Below, in pieces: positions 19,138 to 29,498 of a stretch of 64,000 bases of DNA. Below the pieces are notes generated by a model. That model searched no databases, was not told the origin of the DNA, and was given only the letters and a program-made list of their open reading frames with translations. The DNA comes from Haloarcula rubripromontorii (GTDB taxonomy: Archaea > Halobacteriota > Halobacteria > Halobacteriales > Haloarculaceae). The translations under genes and the position numbers were made by a program. Numbering within the stretch: position 1 is the stretch's first letter; each line of letters starts with the position of its first letter. The DNA is taken from NCBI RefSeq assembly GCF_001280425.1, contig NZ_LIUF01000006.1, positions 62,001-126,000 on the forward strand, in the 5' to 3' direction.

Positions 19138-19212
19138 ATGGTACGGCACGAAGCTAGAGGCAGTCAGCTGCCAGATTCGCACGACGCGGTGGGGGTGCGA
19201 CAATGGCGCTGA
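19138..19212 (+). CDS. Possible leader peptide upstream of the halocyanin-oxidase operon
   Basis: A 24-codon frame begins MVRHEARGSQLPDSH and stops with TGA at 19210-19212, overlapping the halocyanin-fusion start (ATG at 19203) in another frame. If transcription begins about 26 bases after the T-rich promoter core, this ATG would be at the 5' end of the RNA and be read first. Ribosomes ending here would be well placed to reinitiate on the overlapping ATG. It may equally be an untranslated leader. Confidence 0.35.
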   Translation: MVRHEARGSQLPDSHDAVGVRQWR

Positions 19213-20432
19213 GTCGGCGACAGTTCGTCGGTGCCGCAGCCGGGACAGCGGCGCTGGCCGCGACCGGCACGGCGACGGCACAGGAGGAACCGGACTACGG
19301 CGGCTGGTTCGATGACGTTTCGAACTACGACGGGACCGTCGACAAGCGGGGCCAGGACACCGTTACGATCACCGTCGGCGCGCAGGGCAACAACGGCGCG
19401 TTCGCCTTCGACCCGCCCGCGGTGATGGTAAACCCTGGCACAGAGGTTGTCTGGGAATGGAACGGCGAAGGCGGCGGCCACAACGTCGTTTCGGACGGCG
19501 ACGGACCGCTTGACTCAGGCAGCCCGGTCAGCGAGGCCGGAACGACCTACAGCCACACCTTCGAGTCAGAGGGGATGTTCAAGTACGTCTGTACACCCCA
19601 CAAAACGCTCGGGATGAAAGGCGCAGTCGTCGTTCGACCCGGCGGCTCCGGTGGCAGTGGCTCCGGCGGCCAACAGCAGCAAGGCCCGCCGGCGAACCCG
19701 GACTACGGCGGCTGGTTCGATGACGTTTCGAACTACGACGGCACTACCGTCGACAGAACCGGCGCCGACAGCGTCGAGATATCGGTCGGCGCGCAGGGCA
19801 ACAACGGCGCGTTCGCCTTCGACCCGCCCGCGGTTCGGGTGACGCCTGGGACAGAAGTGACGTGGAAGTGGACCGGTGAAGGTGGCGGCCACAACGTCGT
19901 CTCGGACGGCGATGGCCCCCTCGACTCCGGTGACCCAGTCAGCGAATCGGGGACCACCTACAGCCATACCTTCGAAGAGATGGGCGTATACAAGTACGTC
20001 TGTACGCCTCACGCGTCACTCGGCATGAAGGGCGCTGTCGTTGTCGGTGGCCCGCTCGATGGCAGCGGTGGCGGCAGTGGCGGCGGAAGCGGACAGGAGG
20101 GTAGCGGTATCGAACTCTCCGGCCCGCAGTGGCTCCTCTCAGGCTCGGTCCTGCTTGCGTTCTTCTCGCCGCTGTTGTTCGCAGTCGCGATGCGACGCCG
20201 ACAGAACGGGCGGCCGCCACAGACGGGTGACAGTGGCGAGCTGCGTCGGGCGACCGGTCCGGAGCCGGTTGAAGAGGCTGCCGAAACTGAACCGGCCGTC
20301 GAGCTGGGCCACGACGAGTACGACCCGAAGGGAACGGCGGCGCTGGTCGCCTTCTACTTCGTGTTGATTGCCCTGCTGTGGGTGTTCATGTACTTCGTCG
20401 AGTTCCTCGGCCGCGTCTCCATAATCGGGTGA
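19203..20432 (+). CDS. Tandem halocyanin fused to a CbaD-like oxidase membrane segment
   Basis: This 409-residue protein starts with a Tat signal (RRQFVGAAAGTAALAAT). Two near-identical blue-copper halocyanin domains follow (about residues 31-145 and 165-280), each with a GHNVVSDG His, a KYVCTPH Cys/His and a GMKG Met as type I copper ligands. After a Gly/Ser linker comes a helix (QWLLSGSVLLAFFSPLLFAVAM), an acidic cytoplasmic loop, and a terminal helix preceded by DEYDPKGTAALVAFYFVL, which resembles the small CbaD subunit of Natronomonas cytochrome ba3. It heads the oxidase operon, four bases before subunit II. The likely role is to pass electrons directly to the CuA site. The fusion call rests on local similarity. 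Confidence 0.85.
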   Translation: MALSRRQFVGAAAGTAALAATGTATAQEEPDYGGWFDDVSNYDGTVDKRGQDTVTITVGAQGNNGAFAFDPPAVMVNPGTEVVWEWNGEGGGHNVVSDGDGPLDSGSPVSEAGTTYSHTFESEGMFKYVCTPHKTLGMKGAVVVRPGGSGGSGSGGQQQQGPPANPDYGGWFDDVSNYDGTTVDRTGADSVEISVGAQGNNGAFAFDPPAVRVTPGTEVTWKWTGEGGGHNVVSDGDGPLDSGDPVSESGTTYSHTFEEMGVYKYVCTPHASLGMKGAVVVGGPLDGSGGGSGGGSGQEGSGIELSGPQWLLSGSVLLAFFSPLLFAVAMRRRQNGRPPQTGDSGELRRATGPEPVEEAAETEPAVELGHDEYDPKGTAALVAFYFVLIALLWVFMYFVEFLGRVSIIG

Positions 20433-20436
20433 TACC

Positions 20437-21006
20437 ATGCAGGTTCATAGATTCGAAAAAGTCTGGCTCGGTGCAGCGATACTGCTCATCGTCGGATTTA
20501 TCGCCACCATCGCGTACGGTTCGGTCGGCGTTGGCGTCGGGATGGTCGACGATTCGGGCGGACAGATCAGCGCGCAAGCGGTACAGAACGGGAACACTGG
20601 CACCCATTTCGATGATCCCGGTGTCGTCAAAGAGGACGGGCAGTACGTCGTGTACGTCGTCGCCCGGCAGTTCCAGTTCGTTCCGGGGAGCGGGGACAAT
20701 CCGGTCCAGGTCCCCGCAGGTGCCAACGTAACGTTCAGAGTAACCAGTGCAGACGTGGTGCACGGCTTCTCTGTGGTCGAAACCAACATCAACACGATGG
20801 TGATCCCGGGTCAGGTTTCCGAAGTCTCGGCCCGGTTCAACGAACCCGGTACCTACGGGCTCATCTGCCACGAGTACTGCGGGGCGGCCCATCACACGAT
20901 GGGTGGTTCCGTCGAAGTCGTCCCGCCGGAGGAGTACGATATGCAACAGGAGAACATCGAGCAGTCCGCAGATGATGCACAGGCGAAGGAGGAGGCGGAT
21001 CAGTAA
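20437..21006 (+). CDS. cbaB: Cytochrome c oxidase subunit II, ba3 type (CuA protein)
   Basis: This 189-residue protein has one N-terminal membrane anchor (about residues 10-30) and an extracellular cupredoxin domain. The binuclear CuA site is complete: a His in ADVVHGFSV, then C, C, H and M in the segment ICHEYCGAAHHTMGG. A short acidic tail follows. Length and single helix match ba3-type (B-family) subunit II rather than aa3-type, which has two helices. It lies between the halocyanin fusion and subunit I, overlapping the latter by one base (TAATG). Confidence 0.93.
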   Translation: MQVHRFEKVWLGAAILLIVGFIATIAYGSVGVGVGMVDDSGGQISAQAVQNGNTGTHFDDPGVVKEDGQYVVYVVARQFQFVPGSGDNPVQVPAGANVTFRVTSADVVHGFSVVETNINTMVIPGQVSEVSARFNEPGTYGLICHEYCGAAHHTMGGSVEVVPPEEYDMQQENIEQSADDAQAKEEADQ

Positions 21007-22694
21007 TGGTGTTCGTCGACTCCTATCCGAAAACGTCGAAACTCGTCCGGAGCGAGTTTATTGTAGCATTCGTCGCGCTTGGAATCGGCGCGCTGTTTGG
21101 CATCATCCAGTCGCTTCACCGCACTGGCGTGTTCCGCGGGTTCGTCAGTTCGGCGGACTACTACACGATTCTGACGGGCCACGGCGTCCTGCTGGCGCTC
21201 GTGTTCACTACGTTCTTCATTGCGGGGCTGTTCACGTGGGCTGTCGCTAACAGCCTCGAACGCGAGTTACCACACCGCATCGCCTGGTCGGCCTTCTGGG
21301 TTATGCTCACGGGGACAGTGCTCGCGGCCGTGTCCATCATCGGCGGTATCGTCGGCGCGCCGTCGGTTCTGGGTCACGACCTCGAAGCCGACGTGCTGTT
21401 TACCTTCTACGCCCCGATGAAGGCACACCCGGCGTTCTACATCGGTGCCGCGCTCATCATCGTCGGTTCGTGGATCGCCGGCCTCGCGTATTTCAAGGCG
21501 CTGTGGGAGTGGCGCTCTGAGAACCCAGATGAGCGCATCCCGCTGCAGACGTTCATGGTCCTGACGACGATGCTGATGTGGTACGTCTCCACCATCGGCG
21601 TCGCCGTCGAGGTAGTCGCCTTCCTCATTCCGTGGTCGCTCGGACTCATCCAGAACGTCGACCCGCTGCTGACGCGGACGCTGTTCTGGTACTTCGGTCA
21701 CCCGGTCGTGTACTTCTGGCTCATGCCGGCGTACCTCGTCTGGTACACTATCCTGCCGAAACTGGCCGGCGGGCGACTGTTCAGTGACCCGCTGGCTCGC
21801 GTGGTCTTCGTCGCCTTCCTGCTGCTGTCGACCCCGGTCGGCTTCCACCACCAGTACACCGACCCCGGCATCCCGTCGGGCTACAAGTTCATCGCGATGA
21901 CGAACACGATGTTCTTGCTGTTGCCCTCGCTGTTGACCGCGTTCACCGTGGTCGCCTCAGTTGAACACGGCGCTCGCCAGCGGGGTGCAAAGGGCTACCT
22001 CTCCTGGCTTCGGGATCTGCCGTGGGGTAAGCCGGCCTTCGCCGGCTGTATGCTCGCCGGGCTGATGTTCGCCGCCGGTGGCTTCTCCGGCATGATCAAC
22101 GCCGGGATGAACATCAACTACCTCATCCACAACACCATCTGGGTGCCCGGCCACTTCCATCTCACCGTCGGGACTGCGTTCGCACTGACGGCGATGGCTA
22201 TCAGTTACTGGCTGGTCCCACAGATCACCGGGAAAAAACTCCGACAGCGGAGCCTCGCTTCAGTGCAGCCGTACGTCTGGTTCGTGGGCATGGCAATAAT
22301 GTCGAACGCCATGCACCGGGCCGGCCTCGCCGGCATCCCGCGACGGACTGCCGAACCGACGTACGACGAGTTCGCGTTCGAGGGCGTCGCCGGAACGGTC
22401 GGCGAGATGCGCCTTCAGATCGCTATCGGCGGCTTCCTGCTGTTCGTCGGCGCGGCGATGTTCCTCATCGTCATGGCCGACACCCTGCTCGCTCGCCGTG
22501 GCGGGACGCTGTCGGTCAACGGCAATATCCCGGAACCGCTGTCCGGCGCCGATCACAGCCCGCGTATCCTCGACAACTACAAGCTCTGGACGGCGATTGC
22601 ACTGCTGCTCATCGTCATCGCCTACGGGCCGCCGCTCGCCAGCATGGTTGCTGACGGACTGTTCGCGCCCGGTAGTCCGCCGATCCCAGTCTAA
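21006..22694 (+). CDS. cbaA: Cytochrome c oxidase subunit I, ba3 type
   Basis: The catalytic haem-copper subunit reduces oxygen to water and pumps protons. The 562-residue protein has about 13 hydrophobic helices. GHGVLLALVF carries a low-spin haem His. HPVVYFWLMPAYLVWYT supplies the CuB His cross-linked to Tyr. HHQYTDP supplies two more CuB histidines. GHFHLTVGTAFALT supplies the haem a3 and second low-spin haem ligands. YFWLMPAY instead of the aa3 pattern and lack of the D-channel motif place it in the B family. The electron donor is probably the upstream halocyanin domains because haloarchaea lack soluble cytochrome c. Confidence 0.95.
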   Translation: MVFVDSYPKTSKLVRSEFIVAFVALGIGALFGIIQSLHRTGVFRGFVSSADYYTILTGHGVLLALVFTTFFIAGLFTWAVANSLERELPHRIAWSAFWVMLTGTVLAAVSIIGGIVGAPSVLGHDLEADVLFTFYAPMKAHPAFYIGAALIIVGSWIAGLAYFKALWEWRSENPDERIPLQTFMVLTTMLMWYVSTIGVAVEVVAFLIPWSLGLIQNVDPLLTRTLFWYFGHPVVYFWLMPAYLVWYTILPKLAGGRLFSDPLARVVFVAFLLLSTPVGFHHQYTDPGIPSGYKFIAMTNTMFLLLPSLLTAFTVVASVEHGARQRGAKGYLSWLRDLPWGKPAFAGCMLAGLMFAAGGFSGMINAGMNINYLIHNTIWVPGHFHLTVGTAFALTAMAISYWLVPQITGKKLRQRSLASVQPYVWFVGMAIMSNAMHRAGLAGIPRRTAEPTYDEFAFEGVAGTVGEMRLQIAIGGFLLFVGAAMFLIVMADTLLARRGGTLSVNGNIPEPLSGADHSPRILDNYKLWTAIALLLIVIAYGPPLASMVADGLFAPGSPPIPV

Positions 22695-22717
22695 CACCAC
22701 TTCACTACTCTCTCATC

Positions 22718-23266
22718 ATGTTCGAAGACGTCGACGGTCCGGAGCAGAAAACGCTGCTACGACTCCTCATTATCGTCGGAATCGGCCTCCCGATTCTCAT
22801 CGAAGTCGTTACCTTCGGGAGTATGATGGGGCATCACTTGCTTGGAGACAGCGGGGCTGAGGCGGTCCCTGAAACACCGACGGCGGCGGAGACCGGTGCC
22901 GGCGTCGGTGACCCGATTCTGGAATCTGCGGACATCTCGGCCCGGATCGATGCGGCGTCTGTCGTCACCGCTGACGAGGGGTGGCGGTTCACGCTTACGA
23001 TCAACGTGACGAACACCGGGTCAGACCCCGCAGCGGTTCGTCTCGACAGCGTTACCACCCGCGGCGGGGAGACAGTTGCGGATACCGCGAGCACTGGACA
23101 GCTATCAGTGGGCAACACTGACGACCTAACGCAGTCGTGGCTCCTCCCGCCCGGCGAGCGCCCGGACAGCGTCTCTATAACGGTGTTCGTGTATCCGGAC
23201 GGGGAATCAGTACAGTCGACGCAATACACCGTTGCGCTCGGTGACATTCCCGTTTCGAACCGCTGA
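22718..23266 (+). CDS. Single-helix anchored extracellular protein of the oxidase operon
   Basis: This 182-residue protein has one N-terminal membrane helix (LLRLLIIVGIGLPILIEVVTF) and an external beta-sandwich-like domain of about 120 residues with repeated strand patterns (WRFTLTINVTNTG, SVSITVFVYPDG). It resembles the alternating layout of COX-like CARDB/DUF4352-type domains, without metal ligands. It starts 23 bases after subunit I, so it is probably an oxidase accessory subunit. Natronomonas ba3 has four subunits, and this may correspond to one of them, but I cannot confirm that. Confidence 0.7.
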   Translation: MFEDVDGPEQKTLLRLLIIVGIGLPILIEVVTFGSMMGHHLLGDSGAEAVPETPTAAETGAGVGDPILESADISARIDAASVVTADEGWRFTLTINVTNTGSDPAAVRLDSVTTRGGETVADTASTGQLSVGNTDDLTQSWLLPPGERPDSVSITVFVYPDGESVQSTQYTVALGDIPVSNR

Positions 23267-23271
23267 CCGCC

Positions 23272-24534
23272 TCACCCGTCGGCGGGGTCATCACAGGACG
23301 GGCAGGTGTCGGCGTCGGACGGGAGCGACTCGCCGCATTCGCTACAGTACGATTGTCCGGCGTCGCGGCCGCCCGGCGTGAAGACGGACGTATCATCCAT
23401 CCACGCTTCGTCGGTTGTCGAGGGAGTCTCATCCGGTCCGCCCGTTTCCAAGTCCGTGTCTCTACCACTGTGGTCAACAGGGCCCGCCGGGTCCGTGTCG
23501 TCATCTGACGACTGCGCGTTGTTCTGTGCTGATTCGTGAGCGGCCGGTTCCGCCGCCGGAACCTCGTCGGGTGAAAACACTCGTGTCCCGGTGTGCCCCG
23601 GAGACTCCACGTCACTGCCAGCATCTCCGGTGTCGGTTTCCCCACCAGTCTGGTCCCGGGACTTCGGTGCAGCGTCGGCAGCCTGTTCGGCGGCTGGACT
23701 CTCCTCGCCGTTTTGCACCGTCCCGACCGGTGGCATAACTGGGAACCGCTGGTCAGGACGGCGTTGCGGGTTCGAAAGCGGGGCGCGGATTCTGACAGCG
23801 GCCCCGGCGAGCAACTGGAAGAGGAGGTACGCACTCACCAGTACACCGGGGACAGCAATGAAGAGGGATGTGGCCTGTGCTGGCTGGACGCCCATCAGTT
23901 GGATCGCTGTCTCACCCACGGGACTGACCCCGGCCTGAGTCAGCCACGGTGACAGCGCCGGCGGGACGCCGGGTGCGATGACCGTCTGGACCAGCCACCC
24001 AGTGCTGAGCGAGACTGCGCTTACAAACACCAGCAGCGACAGGAACGGGGGGACCGAAAGTGTGTACACACGGTGACCGTAAGCGACGGTCCGGACGACC
24101 AGATGCACTGTTCCGAACAGTGCAACCACCGTGAGCGGCCCTCGCTGACCGAGAGTGAGAGTTACCAGCAGGCAGCCAATGAGCACACTGCCGGGAATAG
24201 CGAGCAACACACTCGGATGGTCCAGCCGATACGCGTCGGCAAGGTTACCGTGTCTGTTCCGAAGTCGTCGGTTGATGAGGACGACGGTCGCCAGTGACGG
24301 ACCGCCGAGCCAGAGACCGGCGGCAAGCACGGTTCGTAACGAGACGGTTCGGCCAGCAAATGTCGTGAGAACAGTTCGTTCGAGCCCCGGGAACTGCGCC
24401 AACAGCAGCCCCGTCGCGAGTACCCAGCCACCGTAGACGAGCCATGCCACGGCCACGCCGACAAATAGCCAGGTTTCAACTCGCAGTAGTGCGGCGGACT
24501 CACGGACTTCCAACCACAGTCGACCACGCTCCAT
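23272..24534 (-). CDS. Polytopic membrane protein with acidic linker and C-terminal zinc ribbon
   Basis: This 420-residue protein has six or seven hydrophobic helices in residues 20-250, then a long disordered Asp/Glu/Thr/Pro linker with a DEAWMDDTSVFTPGG motif, and a C-terminal zinc ribbon (CSECGESLPSDADTCPSC). It is the last gene of the leftward phospho-signalling cluster, 40 bases after the zinc-ribbon/FHA protein. The TDEAW and TSVFTPG patches are Thr-rich and could be phosphorylated and recognised by the neighbouring FHA domains, which is inference. No transporter signature is visible. It ends five bases from the oxidase operon (convergent). Confidence 0.75.
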   Translation of the reverse strand: MERGRLWLEVRESAALLRVETWLFVGVAVAWLVYGGWVLATGLLLAQFPGLERTVLTTFAGRTVSLRTVLAAGLWLGGPSLATVVLINRRLRNRHGNLADAYRLDHPSVLLAIPGSVLIGCLLVTLTLGQRGPLTVVALFGTVHLVVRTVAYGHRVYTLSVPPFLSLLVFVSAVSLSTGWLVQTVIAPGVPPALSPWLTQAGVSPVGETAIQLMGVQPAQATSLFIAVPGVLVSAYLLFQLLAGAAVRIRAPLSNPQRRPDQRFPVMPPVGTVQNGEESPAAEQAADAAPKSRDQTGGETDTGDAGSDVESPGHTGTRVFSPDEVPAAEPAAHESAQNNAQSSDDDTDPAGPVDHSGRDTDLETGGPDETPSTTDEAWMDDTSVFTPGGRDAGQSYCSECGESLPSDADTCPSCDDPADG

Positions 24535-24574
24535 CAGCCTGATGTTTCCCGACCGACCGCTTAATTGTGGGTGG

Positions 24575-25702
24575 TCACGCCGCCCGAATTGTCATCGTGA
24601 CGACGCCCGATAGTTCAAGTTCGTCGCCCGGTTGGATTGGTTCCCGGTCGCCCTTCTGCAGTTGGGTCTCGTTCAGTCGCGTCGGGTTGTCCCCGAGGTC
24701 AACGACATAGTATCCTTCGGGCTGGCGGTCGAACCGGACGTGTTCGCGGTGGATCCGAACCGCTTCGTCTTCCGGTCGCCCGGCGTCCAGTAGCGCCGCC
24801 CGGATCTCCCGGCCGATGCGGTCCCCGTCTTCGACGGTGATGTCTCGACCTTCGACCGAGAGGACGAGTTTGTCCGGGACTGTCGCGTCGTCGGTGGACT
24901 GTGAGGCGAGTGTGTCGACGGCGTTGCCCGTGGCTGCTGTCTCACGCGCTGTCTCGTCGGGAGTCGACGACCCGGCTGCCGAATCAGCCGTCGATGTGTC
25001 ACGCTCGCCGCGATGCGCATCGAGGTCCTCTCCACAGTTGACACAGAAACTGGCGTCGTCGTCAACAGCGGTGTCACAGGACGGGCACGCGTCAAGCGAC
25101 CCGTCGTCTCCCGGTGTGATGTCCTGTACATCGGCACCACAGGCGGCACAGAAATTCGCATCGGCGTCAAGCTCGCGGTCACAGTCCGGACAGCTAATGG
25201 TCGCCGCATCGTCATCTGCCTCCGGGGTTCCGTCGAATGTCTCGCCGTCCTCGTCGGGCTCACTACCGTGCTGTTTCGAGGTGCCGTCGGTCTCGTCAGG
25301 GTCCCCCGAACCGTTCGGCCTGGTTCCGTTTTCGGTCTCGGTGTCGGCGTCAGTTTCCTGCTCCGTCGCTGTCTCTGTCATTCCCGCCGTCTCGTCGCCG
25401 GCCTCGGCTGCCCCAGTGTCCGAAGCCTCGTCGTCGCTTTCGTCGTCGGCGTGGCCGTCTGGAGTGTCGTGTTCGTCGGTGACCCCTATCGGCCGACCGT
25501 CTGCCGGATCCGCCTCGTCCGTGCCTTCCGGTATCAGGTCAGCGTCGTCCGGCACCCCATCATCGGTGTCAAAATCGGCGGCGCTTTCGTCAGTGTGTTG
25601 CCACTCACCACAGTCCGGGTTTGTGCACCATCCGCCCGCGACTGTCGGATCAAAATCCTCGTCGCATATGGGGCATTTTACCGTACGGTCGGATTCAGGC
25701 AT
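24575..25702 (-). CDS. Zinc-ribbon and FHA domain signalling adaptor
   Basis: This 375-residue soluble protein has an N-terminal zinc-binding motif (CPICDEDFDPTVAGGWC), an acidic Thr/Glu linker of about 120 residues, two successive zinc ribbons (CPDC...FCAAC and CPSC...FCVNC) and a C-terminal FHA domain from about residue 280. The FHA core shows IGREIRAALLDAG, IHREHVRF and a DNPTRLNETQL turn. FHA domains bind phosphothreonine peptides, so it probably reads the output of the kinase two genes upstream. A TATA-like element at 25733-25741 suggests its own promoter. The role as adaptor is inferred from domains and neighbours. Confidence 0.82.
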   Translation of the reverse strand: MPESDRTVKCPICDEDFDPTVAGGWCTNPDCGEWQHTDESAADFDTDDGVPDDADLIPEGTDEADPADGRPIGVTDEHDTPDGHADDESDDEASDTGAAEAGDETAGMTETATEQETDADTETENGTRPNGSGDPDETDGTSKQHGSEPDEDGETFDGTPEADDDAATISCPDCDRELDADANFCAACGADVQDITPGDDGSLDACPSCDTAVDDDASFCVNCGEDLDAHRGERDTSTADSAAGSSTPDETARETAATGNAVDTLASQSTDDATVPDKLVLSVEGRDITVEDGDRIGREIRAALLDAGRPEDEAVRIHREHVRFDRQPEGYYVVDLGDNPTRLNETQLQKGDREPIQPGDELELSGVVTMTIRAA

Positions 25703-25732
25703 GGATTTCGTTAGGTCCTACAGAGTCGAGAA

Positions 25733-25741
25733 ATAAAATAC
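25733..25741 (-). promoter_or_regulatory. Internal promoter core before the zinc-ribbon/FHA gene
   Basis: GTATTTTAT on the minus strand lies about 34 bases before the ATG at 25702, in the only A/T-rich part of the 60-base gap after the phosphatase gene. It suggests that the last two genes can also be expressed separately. Confidence 0.4.
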
Positions 25742-25762
25742 TTGTCCCACGAAACTTTCTCT

Positions 25763-26968
25763 CTATTCGTCTGTCATAATCACTGTGTCGCGTTCGGAGA
25801 TATCGAGGTCTGGATCGATATCTCGAACTGGCATACCGCCGCTTTCCGGCGTTTTCGGAAGCGCGCTGTCAGCAAACAGGAGTACGGAGATGTTGTCCTT
25901 CCCGCCACGGTCGTTTGCCAGTGACACGAACTCCTGACTCGCCGCGGCGAGGGACGCCGCGTCGAGGACAACGTCACGAATCTCGTCGTCGGTGACGGCT
26001 GCTTCGCGGATACGCTCGGCCACCGACTCGGCGTGGTCCGAATCGACATACTCCTCGTACAGTTCCGGCGCGTCGGTCTGTGCGTCGATGAGTCCGTCGC
26101 TGGTCGCCAGCACCGTGTCTTCCGCGTACAGCCTGACCGTTCGCGTGTCCACCCCGACAGTCGCATCGTCGGGGTCCTCGTAGCCCGACCCGCCCAGCGC
26201 GCGCGTGATCTCATTGCCGTTCGGGTGGACGTGTGCCTCAACGGGGTCAATTTCGTCGTTGTCGACCCACTCCTGAACAACGGCGTGGTCTCTGGTCAGT
26301 GGCGAGATCGTCTCACGGGCACTATTGACGACGTAGGCCCGACTATCACCGACCCAGCCGTAGTGGAGCTTTCCGTCGGCATAGATCCCCGCGACGACCG
26401 TCGTGTAGGACTGGGTCCCAGTTTCGTTTGCGTACCGGATGATCTCGCGATGCGCCGCCGTAATCGCCTCTGCAACGGCAGTTTCGAGGTCCCGCTCACC
26501 GGGCGGGTCCGGAAGGACATCACGGGCCACGTCCACATCGAAGCCTCCGGGATAGCTCCGGGCCGCCCGGATCGCCACGGGAGCAAGCTGTTCAGCCACG
26601 ATGGTGGTCGTGATGTACGACGCGATATCCCCGGCGTCGTGTCCGCCGGCCCCGTCGGCGACCACGAACACGCCGGCCGAGCGGTTCATCGGTTTCCCCT
26701 CGCTATCGGTGTCAGACGTATCTGCGTCGGCAGTGTCAGCTGTGTCCGTCTCGGCAGCGATATCCGCCGCCGCCTCGGTATCGGCTGCCGCGTCTGTCGC
26801 CTCCGCTGTCTCGTCGTCATCCGCTGTGGCCGGCTTCTGTTGCGGTCTGTCTTGCCCGCGGTAGCCGTCCCGGTGGCCCTCCTCGAACACTGCCAGAGAA
26901 ACGCTGTCCTCGTTGATGCCCTGTCCTCGCTTCCTGTCGCCGATGTCGTAGTTCGTGCTGTATCTCAT
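25763..26968 (-). CDS. PP2C-family serine/threonine protein phosphatase
   Basis: This metal-dependent phosphatase of 401 residues contains the expected PP2C motifs: GINEDSV near residues 18-24, VADGAGGHDAGDIAS, GWVGDSRAYV, TSDGLIDAQ and GGKDNISVLL. An acidic Ala/Asp/Thr insertion of about 55 residues follows motif 1 and is absent from typical members; it may be a docking or halophilic loop. The start at 26968 overlaps the kinase stop by four bases (ATGA), so kinase and opposing phosphatase are translationally coupled. Together with the kinase and VWA gene it resembles the TerY-phosphorylation triad described for bacterial stress systems. Confidence 0.92.
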   Translation of the reverse strand: MRYSTNYDIGDRKRGQGINEDSVSLAVFEEGHRDGYRGQDRPQQKPATADDDETAEATDAAADTEAAADIAAETDTADTADADTSDTDSEGKPMNRSAGVFVVADGAGGHDAGDIASYITTTIVAEQLAPVAIRAARSYPGGFDVDVARDVLPDPPGERDLETAVAEAITAAHREIIRYANETGTQSYTTVVAGIYADGKLHYGWVGDSRAYVVNSARETISPLTRDHAVVQEWVDNDEIDPVEAHVHPNGNEITRALGGSGYEDPDDATVGVDTRTVRLYAEDTVLATSDGLIDAQTDAPELYEEYVDSDHAESVAERIREAAVTDDEIRDVVLDAASLAAASQEFVSLANDRGGKDNISVLLFADSALPKTPESGGMPVRDIDPDLDISERDTVIMTDE

Positions 26969-28203
26969 GACTCCTCCGGATGGAACTCGAACGTAACCCC
27001 GTAGGTCGGATGGACCAGCGACACCAGATCGCCGTCGGTGAGTGTCACCGATTCGGGGGGCACGTCGCCGTGTCTGTCGGTCGGGTCCTCGCCTTCGGAG
27101 CGTAGACGGTTGCGTCCGGGTTCGGAGAGGACCCGCTGCCAGCCGGCGCCTTTCTGGACGAACGTCCCGTTGAGGCTCCGGTCGTGGAGGGCCCACTCGC
27201 CGTCCTCGATATCGAACTGTACCTGCACCGAGGAGATGTACTCTCCCTGCGGGTCTTCGATTGTTATCGATGCCGGGGGACCGCTCGCGCCCTGTCGCCC
27301 GATAGTGTCGCCCGGTTCGACGGTGAACTGCCTGTCCGCCTGGATGTACGTCACCGACGCCGTCGCGGGCGGCGTCGGATCGCGCCGTTCGAGGACTTCT
27401 TTGAGAACCGTCGCGTTCCGGTATCGGTCGCGGTAATGTGACTGCGTGGCCCGTTCGACGATTTCAGCCAGATACTCGTCGCAGTCGGCCCCGAACGCCT
27501 GCGGGTTCACGCCGTCTTTCTTCGGGACGCTCCCTTTCAGGAGGAACAAGAGGATCTTCCCGATTGAATACACGTCCGACCAGGGACCCTGCCGAACGTC
27601 GGTTCGGCTGGCCTCGGCGACTTCGCGGGGCTTGAACGGCCCCAGAATTGTCGTCCCGGTGTTCCCGGAGGACGGGTCCTCTGTAGCATCGAAGCCCGTC
27701 GCCGTGTTGAAATCGATCAGCGTGGGCGTGATATCGGGCGTAAGCATCACGTTCTCCGGTTTCAGGTCCCGGTAGACGATCTCGTTCTCGTGAAGAAAGC
27801 CCATCGCGTCACAGAGGTCGATGCCGATCTGGCGGACCTGCTCGCTATCGTCGATCGGGCCGTGCTGGTCGATGACCTCGTCGAGTTCGATCCCGTCGAC
27901 GATTAGCTGGACGACCAGGAACGGAACGTCACGCTCCGTGACCTGGTCGTAGTAGTCCATCACATTCTCGTGACCGCCGGCCCGGCGGATGCGTTCCAGC
28001 GAGCCGACCTCCTTTTTGAAGTATTCCTCGATGATGTCGGGGTCGTTCTGGGATTCGGTGTAGTTGGGGTACTTTACGGCGACCGACTCGCCGCTGTCGA
28101 TGTCTTTAGCGCGGAACGCCTTTGCGAACCCTCCCTTGCCGAGGAACTCCGCAAGTTTGTACTGACCGGCGATGACATCACCGCTCTCAGGTTCCCAGTT
28201 CAT
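26965..28203 (-). CDS. Eukaryotic-type Ser/Thr protein kinase with C-terminal FHA domain
   Basis: This 412-residue protein has a Hanks-type kinase domain in residues 1-270. The glycine loop is GKGGFAKAF, the ATP-binding lysine is in VAVKYP, the catalytic loop is YRDLKPENV and the metal-binding aspartate is in LIDFNTAT. The last is DFN rather than DFG, and HRD is YRD; both catalytic aspartates remain, so activity is plausible. A C-terminal FHA domain (about residues 285-400) has TIGRQGAS and LHDRSLNGTFV, a textbook phospho-peptide fold. No membrane helix is present, so it is a cytosolic kinase unlike PknB. It is 57 bases after the VWA gene and coupled to the PP2C gene. Confidence 0.92.
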   Translation of the reverse strand: MNWEPESGDVIAGQYKLAEFLGKGGFAKAFRAKDIDSGESVAVKYPNYTESQNDPDIIEEYFKKEVGSLERIRRAGGHENVMDYYDQVTERDVPFLVVQLIVDGIELDEVIDQHGPIDDSEQVRQIGIDLCDAMGFLHENEIVYRDLKPENVMLTPDITPTLIDFNTATGFDATEDPSSGNTGTTILGPFKPREVAEASRTDVRQGPWSDVYSIGKILLFLLKGSVPKKDGVNPQAFGADCDEYLAEIVERATQSHYRDRYRNATVLKEVLERRDPTPPATASVTYIQADRQFTVEPGDTIGRQGASGPPASITIEDPQGEYISSVQVQFDIEDGEWALHDRSLNGTFVQKGAGWQRVLSEPGRNRLRSEGEDPTDRHGDVPPESVTLTDGDLVSLVHPTYGVTFEFHPEES

Positions 28204-28259
28204 GAATCACCTGTTTCTCCGGCCAGTAGCAGCCAAGCTGACAACACAGATCGGGACGG

Positions 28260-29444
28260 TCACTTCTGGATACCTTCGTCAGTGACGATTTTTGTCGCCT
28301 TGTTTTGCTCCTTGCGCCCGCCTTCCATCACGATGCGCGTCTCCCGCTCGGCTGTCTGGACGGCTTCGGTGTCCTCACCGTGGATGCGCGTCATTCGCTC
28401 CAGTTGCGTCTGGGCTTCGGCGACGTTGCCCTTGCCGAGTTCCGTCTTGATTACAGTCTGGCGGTGGTCCACGTCGACCTGTTCGTTGTGCTCGGCCAGT
28501 TTTGACTCGTCGTCGGTGTAGTCGACGGTGATTGATTCCCGCGTCGTCTCACCGCCAGCGTGCAGCGTGACATCCGCAAGGGACACAGCGTCCTGTGGGT
28601 CATTGGCCGGAGCGTGTATTTTCAGCACGACCCGCTGAGTCTCCCGCTCAAGCAGGTCGGGCAGCGGCACGACAGCCGTGTTGTCCTCCCAGTCCGGGTT
28701 CACGGACTGTGTCTGTGGGAGCGAGCGGTACACCTCGCTCACTTCGACACCGTCAGTCACGTCGAGTTCGAGACGCGCGTCGGGAGCAACAACGGTCCCG
28801 GCCTCCTCGACTGCGTCCCCGAAGAACGACTCGATGTCACCGGCGGCGTCCAGATGTGTCCACTCGCCGCGAGCAACGGTCCCAAGCGTCCGAATCGTCT
28901 CCTCGCGGTAGTCGCTCCCGATGCCGGCCGCCTTGATTCTGATACCCTCAGTGTCGATTTCACGCGCTAGCGTCCCGAATGCTTCCGGGTCGTGGGAGTT
29001 GTCTTTCCCGTCAGAGAGGAGCAGGACCCGTCGGGCCGTGTTGTCGTCGGTCGGTAAATCCTGCAGGGACGCTTTCGCTTCCAGCAGGCCGCTGTACATA
29101 TCAGTACCCCCGCCAGCGGAGATGTCGGCGACCGCGTCCACTGCCGTTTCGCGCGAAATAGTCCCCCACCGTGTCGGTGCAAGAACCGTCGTAACCTCGT
29201 TGTCGAAGGCGATGATCGAAACGTAGTCGTCTTCGTCGAGGAGTCCAAACACCCATTCAGCGCCGGCGCGTGCCTGCTCGATGTCGTCGCCGGCCATCGA
29301 CCCACTGGCGTCGATACAGAGGGCGATCTGTCGCGTGGGTGGTTCCTCCAACCGTCCGGGCTCGACTTCGATTTCAGCGGTCAGTTTCGCCCCGCCCGTC
29401 GGCACGTAGGGTCGGTTGACCTCGCTCACGACAGTAGCGGTCAT
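28260..29444 (-). CDS. von Willebrand factor A domain protein (first gene of the signalling cluster)
   Basis: A 394-residue protein contains a VWA domain in residues about 38-200 with a complete MIDAS: D45-A-S-G-S, the Thr in GGGTDMYSG, and the Asp in LLSDGKDN. The C-terminal half has a beta-rich part and a helical tail, with no membrane helix or signal. VWA domains bind partners through a metal ion and are part of TerY-type phospho-signalling operons. The promoter carries a TATA box at 29468-29477 and a perfect 8-bp inverted repeat just upstream (29478-29498), suggesting repressor control. It begins the leftward cluster of kinase, phosphatase and FHA proteins. Confidence 0.9.
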   Translation of the reverse strand: MTATVVSEVNRPYVPTGGAKLTAEIEVEPGRLEEPPTRQIALCIDASGSMAGDDIEQARAGAEWVFGLLDEDDYVSIIAFDNEVTTVLAPTRWGTISRETAVDAVADISAGGGTDMYSGLLEAKASLQDLPTDDNTARRVLLLSDGKDNSHDPEAFGTLAREIDTEGIRIKAAGIGSDYREETIRTLGTVARGEWTHLDAAGDIESFFGDAVEEAGTVVAPDARLELDVTDGVEVSEVYRSLPQTQSVNPDWEDNTAVVPLPDLLERETQRVVLKIHAPANDPQDAVSLADVTLHAGGETTRESITVDYTDDESKLAEHNEQVDVDHRQTVIKTELGKGNVAEAQTQLERMTRIHGEDTEAVQTAERETRIVMEGGRKEQNKATKIVTDEGIQK

Positions 29445-29467
29445 ACTGGTAGATGGGTCGTACGGAG

Positions 29468-29477
29468 TAATTATATG
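29468..29477 (-). promoter_or_regulatory. TATA box for the VWA-kinase-phosphatase operon
   Basis: CATATAATTA on the minus strand is centred about 28 bases before the ATG at 29444, predicting a leaderless transcript. Confidence 0.6.
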
Positions 29478-29498
29478 TTTCCCTCAAATCGAGGGAAA
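29478..29498. promoter_or_regulatory. Perfect inverted repeat abutting the TATA box (candidate operator)
   Basis: TTTCCCTC and GAGGGAAA flank a 5-base spacer (AAATC). The repeat lies directly upstream of the TATA box, overlapping the place where TFB contacts DNA. That position is typical for an archaeal repressor or activator dimer. No regulator gene is next to it in this window. Confidence 0.55.

Follow-up and report, generated by a model that had tools for sequence, protein, structure and literature searches.

We analysed a row of five co-oriented genes in a 64,000-nucleotide stretch of the Haloarcula rubripromontorii genome (contig NZ_LIUF01000006.1, positions 62,001 to 126,000; hereafter the window). 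Running on the minus strand from 29444 to 23272, these genes encode a VWA protein (P0001), a kinase with an FHA domain (kinase-FHA, P0002), a PP2C phosphatase (P0003), a zinc-ribbon/FHA protein (P0004) and a membrane protein (P0005), and they are separated by gaps of 56, -4 (ATGA), 60 and 40 nucleotides (Table 1). Open reading frames and Pfam matches confirm the initial annotation of the five genes on one strand, including the ATGA junction of the PP2C gene. P0001 matches VWA (7e-16), P0002 matches Pkinase (4e-28) and FHA (7e-6), P0003 matches PP2C_2 (2e-10), and P0004 matches a double zinc ribbon (5e-12) and FHA (1e-6). The zinc ribbons that had been assigned to P0004 and P0005 are present in both proteins, although P0004 has three rather than two. 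The terminal ribbon of P0005 falls under the Pfam cut-off, yet it shows a clear CxxC...CxxC pattern with cysteines that do not vary among 13 homologues.

The key residues of the signalling domains are retained. The metal-ion-dependent adhesion site (MIDAS) of P0001, composed of D45-S47-S49, T114 and D145, is invariant in 13 homologues. In P0002, G24-G25, K44, E65, D146, N151, D164, E194, D210 and R260 are invariant across homologues, with YRD replacing HRD, and DFN or DFT replacing DFG. The acidic metal ligands of PP2C are invariant across the homologues of P0003, and PP2C homologues in other families are fused to FHA. The predicted model of P0005 is poor, with a predicted local distance difference test score (pLDDT) of 44.

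Upstream of the VWA gene, a TATA-like box lies about 30 nucleotides ahead of the start codon, and the inverted repeat CCCTC-gattt-GAGGG (29481-29495) directly precedes the box. About 60 nucleotides of this region are near-identical across five genomes of the genus, and farther upstream the sequence diverges. The repeat is present in all five, one with a loss of 1 nucleotide, and is a candidate operator. The position of the probable promoter fits a single transcript from the VWA gene.

Table 1. Genes, candidate threonine motifs and probable promoter of the cluster (positions in the window)
Feature	Coordinates	Strand	Description
P0001, VWA protein, 394 amino acids	28260..29444	-	beta-sandwich split by VWA domain (MIDAS complete), then C-terminal helical domain and disordered tail; ArnB-like
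P0002, cytosolic Hanks Ser/Thr kinase, 412 amino acids	26965..28203	-	kinase residues 15-249; C-terminal FHA about 300-400
P0003, PP2C-type phosphatase, 401 amino acids	25763..26968	-	ATGA overlap with kinase gene
P0004, zinc-ribbon protein, 375 amino acids	24575..25702	-	three CxxC..C ribbons, acidic linkers, C-terminal FHA; ArnA-like layout
P0005, polytopic membrane protein, 420 amino acids	23272..24534	-	several membrane segments, disordered tail, C-terminal zinc ribbon
VWA motif T369-R-I-V	28329..28340	-	end of last helix; Thr invariant, 13 homologues
VWA tail motif T384-K-I-V	28284..28295	-	disordered tail; Thr invariant, 13 homologues; candidate phosphothreonine
PP2C tail motif D-T395-V-I	25778..25789	-	Thr invariant, 12 homologues
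P0005 GarA-like motif D-T382-S-V-F	23380..23394	-	in tail, directly ahead of zinc ribbon
P0005 second motif copy T317-R-V-F	23575..23586	-	
Probable promoter of cluster	29466..29495	-	inverted repeat, then TATA-like box

Gene order across Halobacteria

We compared gene neighbourhoods, as the initial annotation had proposed, in a sample of 145 genomes of the class Halobacteria (match threshold E up to 0.001). P0003 matched 22 genomes, P0002 32 and P0001 67, the weak matches being mostly other kinases and other VWA proteins. Adjacent, collinear VWA, kinase and PP2C genes occur in 19 of the 145 genomes (20 loci), spanning 6 genera and 3 families: all 8 genomes of the window's genus, 4 from genus g4, 6 from family f3 and 1 from f4. 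This collinearity across three families supports the earlier proposal of a conserved archaeal module of kinase, phosphatase, FHA and VWA proteins. The full five-gene order was found in the window's genus and at one g4 locus; elsewhere the genes are reordered or the membrane gene is unlinked.

Gene maps reveal two layouts of the same five families. In layout I, found in the window's genus and g4, the VWA, kinase-FHA, PP2C and zinc-ribbon/FHA genes follow each other, and the window's genus, like a single g4 locus, adds the membrane protein gene; three g4 genomes have their membrane homologue at a different place. In layout II, found in f3, at one locus of genome G137 and partly in genome G111, the zinc-ribbon/FHA gene comes first, followed by the VWA, the kinase-FHA and a PP2C fused to FHA, and the membrane protein gene lies beside the cluster on the opposite strand. 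Genome G137 has both layouts. In every full cluster read, the P0004 family adjoins the VWA gene or sits at a distance of two genes. Gene order is kept far beyond chance, and since all five families recur together in two layouts with unrelated flanks, the five parts belong together and form a real module.

Layout II often includes a second FHA-bearing kinase-like protein (loci L041 10813-12027, L042 10793-12070, L044 10871-12082 and L046 10475-11692), which adjoins the PP2C fused to FHA. It has HLD for HRD, DLN for DFG and a shortened activation-loop stretch, and may be a pseudokinase. PP2C matches in genomes G037, G062 and G066, and weaker ones in G041, G059 and G113, do not lie beside the module. 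Those read (L049, L050 and L051, from G037, G062 and G113) are part of another conserved PP2C neighbourhood of haloarchaea, in which L049 has an AAA ATPase together with kinases, of which one is fused to a PQQ-type propeller, and L050 has a zinc-ribbon Band 7 protein. Among the matches listed, none from another class of the phylum covers most of the VWA protein.

The flanking genes differ among genera, and within the window's genus the module has one fixed neighbourhood of housekeeping-type genes. A convergent cluster at 19203-23266 of the window, encoding a halocyanin-like protein, cytochrome oxidase subunits and a small membrane protein, adjoins the module in every genome read from this genus. 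Neither this cluster nor the neighbouring genes for a DUF3179 protein, a carboxylesterase-like hydrolase and a glyoxalase give a clear hint at the module's role.

Conserved threonines in the protein tails

Alignments reveal invariant threonines within poorly conserved tails, in each case with I, V or L at position +2. T369 and T384 of the VWA protein are kept in 13 of 13 homologues, T395 of the PP2C in 12 of 12 and T382 of the membrane protein in 12 of 13. The P0005 motif, [DE]T[RSQ][IV][FY] or, with K also allowed, [DE]T[RSQK][IV][FY], occurs 12 times among the 375 proteins encoded at the loci read. The membrane-protein family accounts for 11 of these occurrences, and the total of 12 stands against a shuffled expectation of 1.4 on average and 5 at most. 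The chance of finding T[RSQK][IV][FY] in a shuffled linker is 0.003 to 0.013 per lineage. One relocated membrane homologue of g4, which lay outside the motif-discovery set, retains TTRVY. The Thr-rich linkers of P0004 and P0005 had been suggested as phosphorylation targets. Such linkers are in general usual for halophiles, the actual signal being one short motif inside them; the proposal that threonines of linkers or tails are likely targets is supported, now with a defined motif.

The twelfth occurrence of the motif is in a soluble protein of 125 amino acids in genome G111 (L040 5003-5380), which combines DTQVY with a C-terminal zinc ribbon. The G111 cluster is the one for which no membrane homologue was found, and the soluble protein beside it may substitute for one. 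A search for motif-plus-zinc-ribbon tails elsewhere in the H. rubripromontorii genome returned partial matches only, including a TFIIB-like protein and a HEAT-repeat-like protein with a C-terminal ribbon; neither of these two was accepted as a motif-bearing partner.

The VWA tails can be compared with those of relatives outside the module. Module VWA proteins have 3-5 T-x-[IV] in their last 60 residues (shuffle P 0.0004-0.04), whereas in five VWA relatives from haloarchaea that lack kinase neighbours the number is 0-2, which is the chance level (P 0.28-1). Because the lineages are related, these tests are not independent. Among these relatives, which are solitary or lie beside Hsp70 genes, none has a Thr at position 384. 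At L057 and L058, on Haloplanus and Halorubrum plasmids, an Hsp70 family gene directly adjoins the gene of the P0001 relative and genes for tubulin-like proteins are near, and the Haloplanus locus of this type also has GrpE and an AAA ATPase.

The FHA profile of P0004 has GarA as its best FHA match. A GarA substrate peptide, SDEVTVETTSVFRADFL, contains ETTSVF (PMC8546545), the known GarA phospho-motif, and thereby shares T-S-V-F with P0005. The actinobacterial GarA/OdhI proteins are alike in placing a T-S-V-F or T-R-I-F motif ahead of an FHA-reading system. They differ in that motif and FHA reside in one protein, whereas here the motif is on P0005 and the FHA domains are on P0002 and P0004. 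At the level of sequence, what is new here is the set of conserved T-x-[IV] tail threonines, as candidate phosphosites, in the VWA protein, the PP2C and the membrane protein.

Relation to ArnA/ArnB and to bacterial clusters

The nearest solved relative of the VWA protein is ArnB of Sulfolobus acidocaldarius. By sequence, the best PDB match of P0001 is 8s05_A (phmmer 2e-9; profile 8e-21), the ArnB structure (PMC12852372), and in a second stretch the C-terminal helical regions align weakly. The AlphaFold model of P0001 (pLDDT 86) has matches covering residues 1-384, and comparison with 8s05_A gives a Foldseek value of 8e-26 and a Z-score of 30.5 over 348 residues with a root-mean-square deviation of 4.0. 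The model also matches ArnE (5a8j, Z 26.7) and the bacterial protein 4fx5 from Catenulispora (Z 33.9). In a small tree with long branches and weak deep support, the VWAs of the module group together (91/94) next to other haloarchaeal VWAs, and ArnB and the bacterial VWAs fall outside. A contig search with an ArnB fragment returned three short bacterial matches, none in Sulfolobales, and the arn gene neighbourhoods are taken from papers.

In Sulfolobus, phosphorylated threonines in the C-terminal helical bundle of ArnB are read by the FHA domain of ArnA, with ArnC as the kinase and PP2A as the phosphatase (PMC6509490, PMC12852372). The haloarchaeal cluster shares with ArnA/ArnB a VWA domain that splits a beta-sandwich, a C-terminal helical domain, threonines in the VWA C-terminus, a neighbouring gene for a protein ordered zinc ribbon, linker and FHA (P0004 as ArnA), and a Hanks-type kinase and a phosphatase serving the module (PMC6509490, PMC12852372, PMC7472852). 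In contrast to Sulfolobus, the kinase and phosphatase genes here lie in the same operon, the kinase bears its own FHA, the phosphatase is a PP2C rather than PP2A, a membrane zinc-ribbon member is added, and a match to ArnB_C is absent.

A plasmid protein search with P0001 led to bacterial clusters of similar content. In Tolypothrix, genes for a VWA protein, a zinc-ribbon/FHA protein, a PP2C and a zinc-ribbon kinase are consecutive; Trichormus has VWA, FHA and PP2C genes up to the record end; Gloeothece has VWA, zinc-ribbon/FHA, PP2C and FHA-kinase genes, one more gene, and a kinase; and plasmids of Deinococcus radiodurans have VWA, kinase, zinc-ribbon, FHA and PP2C genes. These clusters are alike in placing the four activities side by side on one strand, in a short zinc-ribbon protein with a Thr/Pro-rich linker and FHA, and in Thr-rich VWA tails, and Gloeothece also has an FHA kinase. 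They differ in that their VWA proteins are 24-28% identical to P0001, with the tail motif KTVKMG rather than T-x-[IV], the PP2C and one kinase have other N-terminal domains, and no P0005 homologue was found there. The cyanobacterial clusters (L061, L086 and L087) also have additional genes directly upstream, shared among plasmids, that encode further vWA proteins, an ARC6-like protein and a serine hydrolase. The plasmid searches returned no close homologues of P0002 or P0004. Exclusive common descent of the haloarchaeal and bacterial VWAs was not found, the module VWAs grouping with other haloarchaeal VWAs (weak support).

The initial annotation had not recognised this archaeal variant as a described system. 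In the part of the literature that we covered, no description of the haloarchaeal cluster was found, and this holds as well for the cyanobacterial and Deinococcus clusters as a system; however, the ArnA/ArnB precedent and these bacterial counterparts had been missed. The cluster is real, conserved and coherent, and is best placed as a variant within the VWA/FHA/kinase/phosphatase kind, not as a category of its own.

A candidate phospho-switch and its alternatives

As judged from conserved residues, fold and alignments, the module combines an intact kinase, an intact PP2C, a VWA protein with its MIDAS, an ArnB-like scaffold, an ArnA-like partner and conserved tail threonines. From these features and the analogy with ArnA/ArnB, we consider it probable that the five genes form a self-contained Ser/Thr phospho-switch of the ArnA/ArnB kind that is equipped with its own enzymes. 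In such a switch, the kinase would phosphorylate the tails of the VWA protein, the PP2C and the membrane protein at the T-x-[IV] threonines. By analogy with ArnA/ArnB and GarA, the FHA domains of the kinase and of the zinc-ribbon protein would bind these phosphothreonines. The VWA scaffold would pass from a loose to a tight complex upon FHA binding and be drawn to the membrane protein, which is likely the input or an anchor. The PP2C, itself recruited via its own tail, would erase the marks. Motility is one possible output. The Sulfolobus Arn network acts on archaellum expression and metabolism.

Several observations weigh against this reading. The motif was recognised first and tested afterwards, and its support is post hoc. 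In the VWA protein and the PP2C, T-x-[IV] is a loose form, present in the last 14 residues of about 11% of all proteins. In the fold comparison, the non-Arn protein 4fx5 scores as high as ArnB. Moreover, the authors of the 8S05 structure describe the three-domain VWA design as widespread and not specific to Arn (PMC12852372), so fold alone is insufficient for Arn membership. ArnB_C (PF18677) matched 0 of 141 Halobacteria genomes, whereas the control in S. acidocaldarius matches. The occurrence of five families in one neighbourhood is also not the same as physical contact. Finally, the P0004 FHA of the window's genus has HREH rather than the canonical SxxH and N-P rather than N-G; with the canonical Ser and the glycine of N-G lost, it is uncertain that this domain binds phosphothreonine. 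In layout II, the phosphothreonine residues of this FHA family are canonical. The FHA of the window's genus may read the mark in an altered way, or may have passed this task to the kinase FHA.

The same core genes have been seen in other settings, and these offer competing explanations. The initial annotation likened the cluster to the TerY-P triad, in which case the VWA, PP2C and kinase would act in a Ter-like response to metal or stress, and the zinc ribbons would sense metals. The TerY-P and GAP1-N2-linked triads do resemble the cluster in their adjacent VWA, PP2C and kinase genes and in the involvement of zinc ribbons (PMC7159879), which here occur in two partners and, in the bacterial clusters, in a kinase itself. 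However, P0001 has no TerY_C match (at Pfam E up to 0.1, VWA-type models only), its closest relative is ArnB rather than TerY, and no Ter genes (TerC, TerD) were found among the neighbours scanned, a subset across genomes. No GAP1-N2 genes were seen either, and the FHA reader and membrane tail member are additional here. TerY was therefore dropped as the best comparison, and we regard a Ter-like role as unlikely.

A role in conflict or defence, as a triad like those beside GAP1-N2 NTPase systems or as a kinase-based anti-phage system, would suit the patchy spread of the module and the actinobacterial kinase(zinc ribbon)-PP2C-vWA triads reported in GAP1-N2 NTPase systems (PMC7159879). PADLOC kinase models do match P0002, but these are generic-kinase matches only, and P0001, P0003, P0004 and P0005 match no defence model. 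The conserved set is also without a nuclease, NTPase or toxin-like effector, and its neighbourhood within the window's genus is fixed and of housekeeping type, which makes defence an improbable function. The module could instead be a true orthologue of the Sulfolobus Arn network that controls haloarchaeal archaellum or pilus genes, as the adjacency of an ArnB-like VWA gene and a zinc-ribbon/FHA gene might suggest. We consider this very unlikely given the absence of ArnB_C, a PP2C in place of the Sulfolobus PP2A, and the branching of ArnB outside the haloarchaeal module clade. In addition, most Halobacteria are without the cluster, and no motility genes were seen nearby in the stretches examined.

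Returning to the phospho-switch, a more specific form of it can be put forward tentatively, and we hold it to be possible though somewhat doubtful. In this form, one kinase would write a single short, GarA-like phosphothreonine code (T-x-[IV]) on the scaffold, the phosphatase and the membrane anchor, two FHA domains, one of them the kinase's own, would read it, and the cluster would assemble at the membrane depending on phosphorylation, with Sulfolobus ArnA/ArnB as a reduced, dispersed form.

The mechanism of archaeal Ser/Thr phospho-signalling is known almost solely from Sulfolobus, where the genes for writer, eraser and reader are scattered. If this more specific form holds, the cluster would be a complete archaeal write-read-erase system within one operon. 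Given that the cluster unites writer, eraser, readers, scaffold and membrane partner and that candidate phosphosites can be named, substrate assignment becomes directly testable in tractable haloarchaea. The cluster also ties the ArnB/ArnA design to the GarA motif and to the clusters of cyanobacteria and Deinococcus, a link suggesting that one phosphothreonine/FHA logic has been widely reused.

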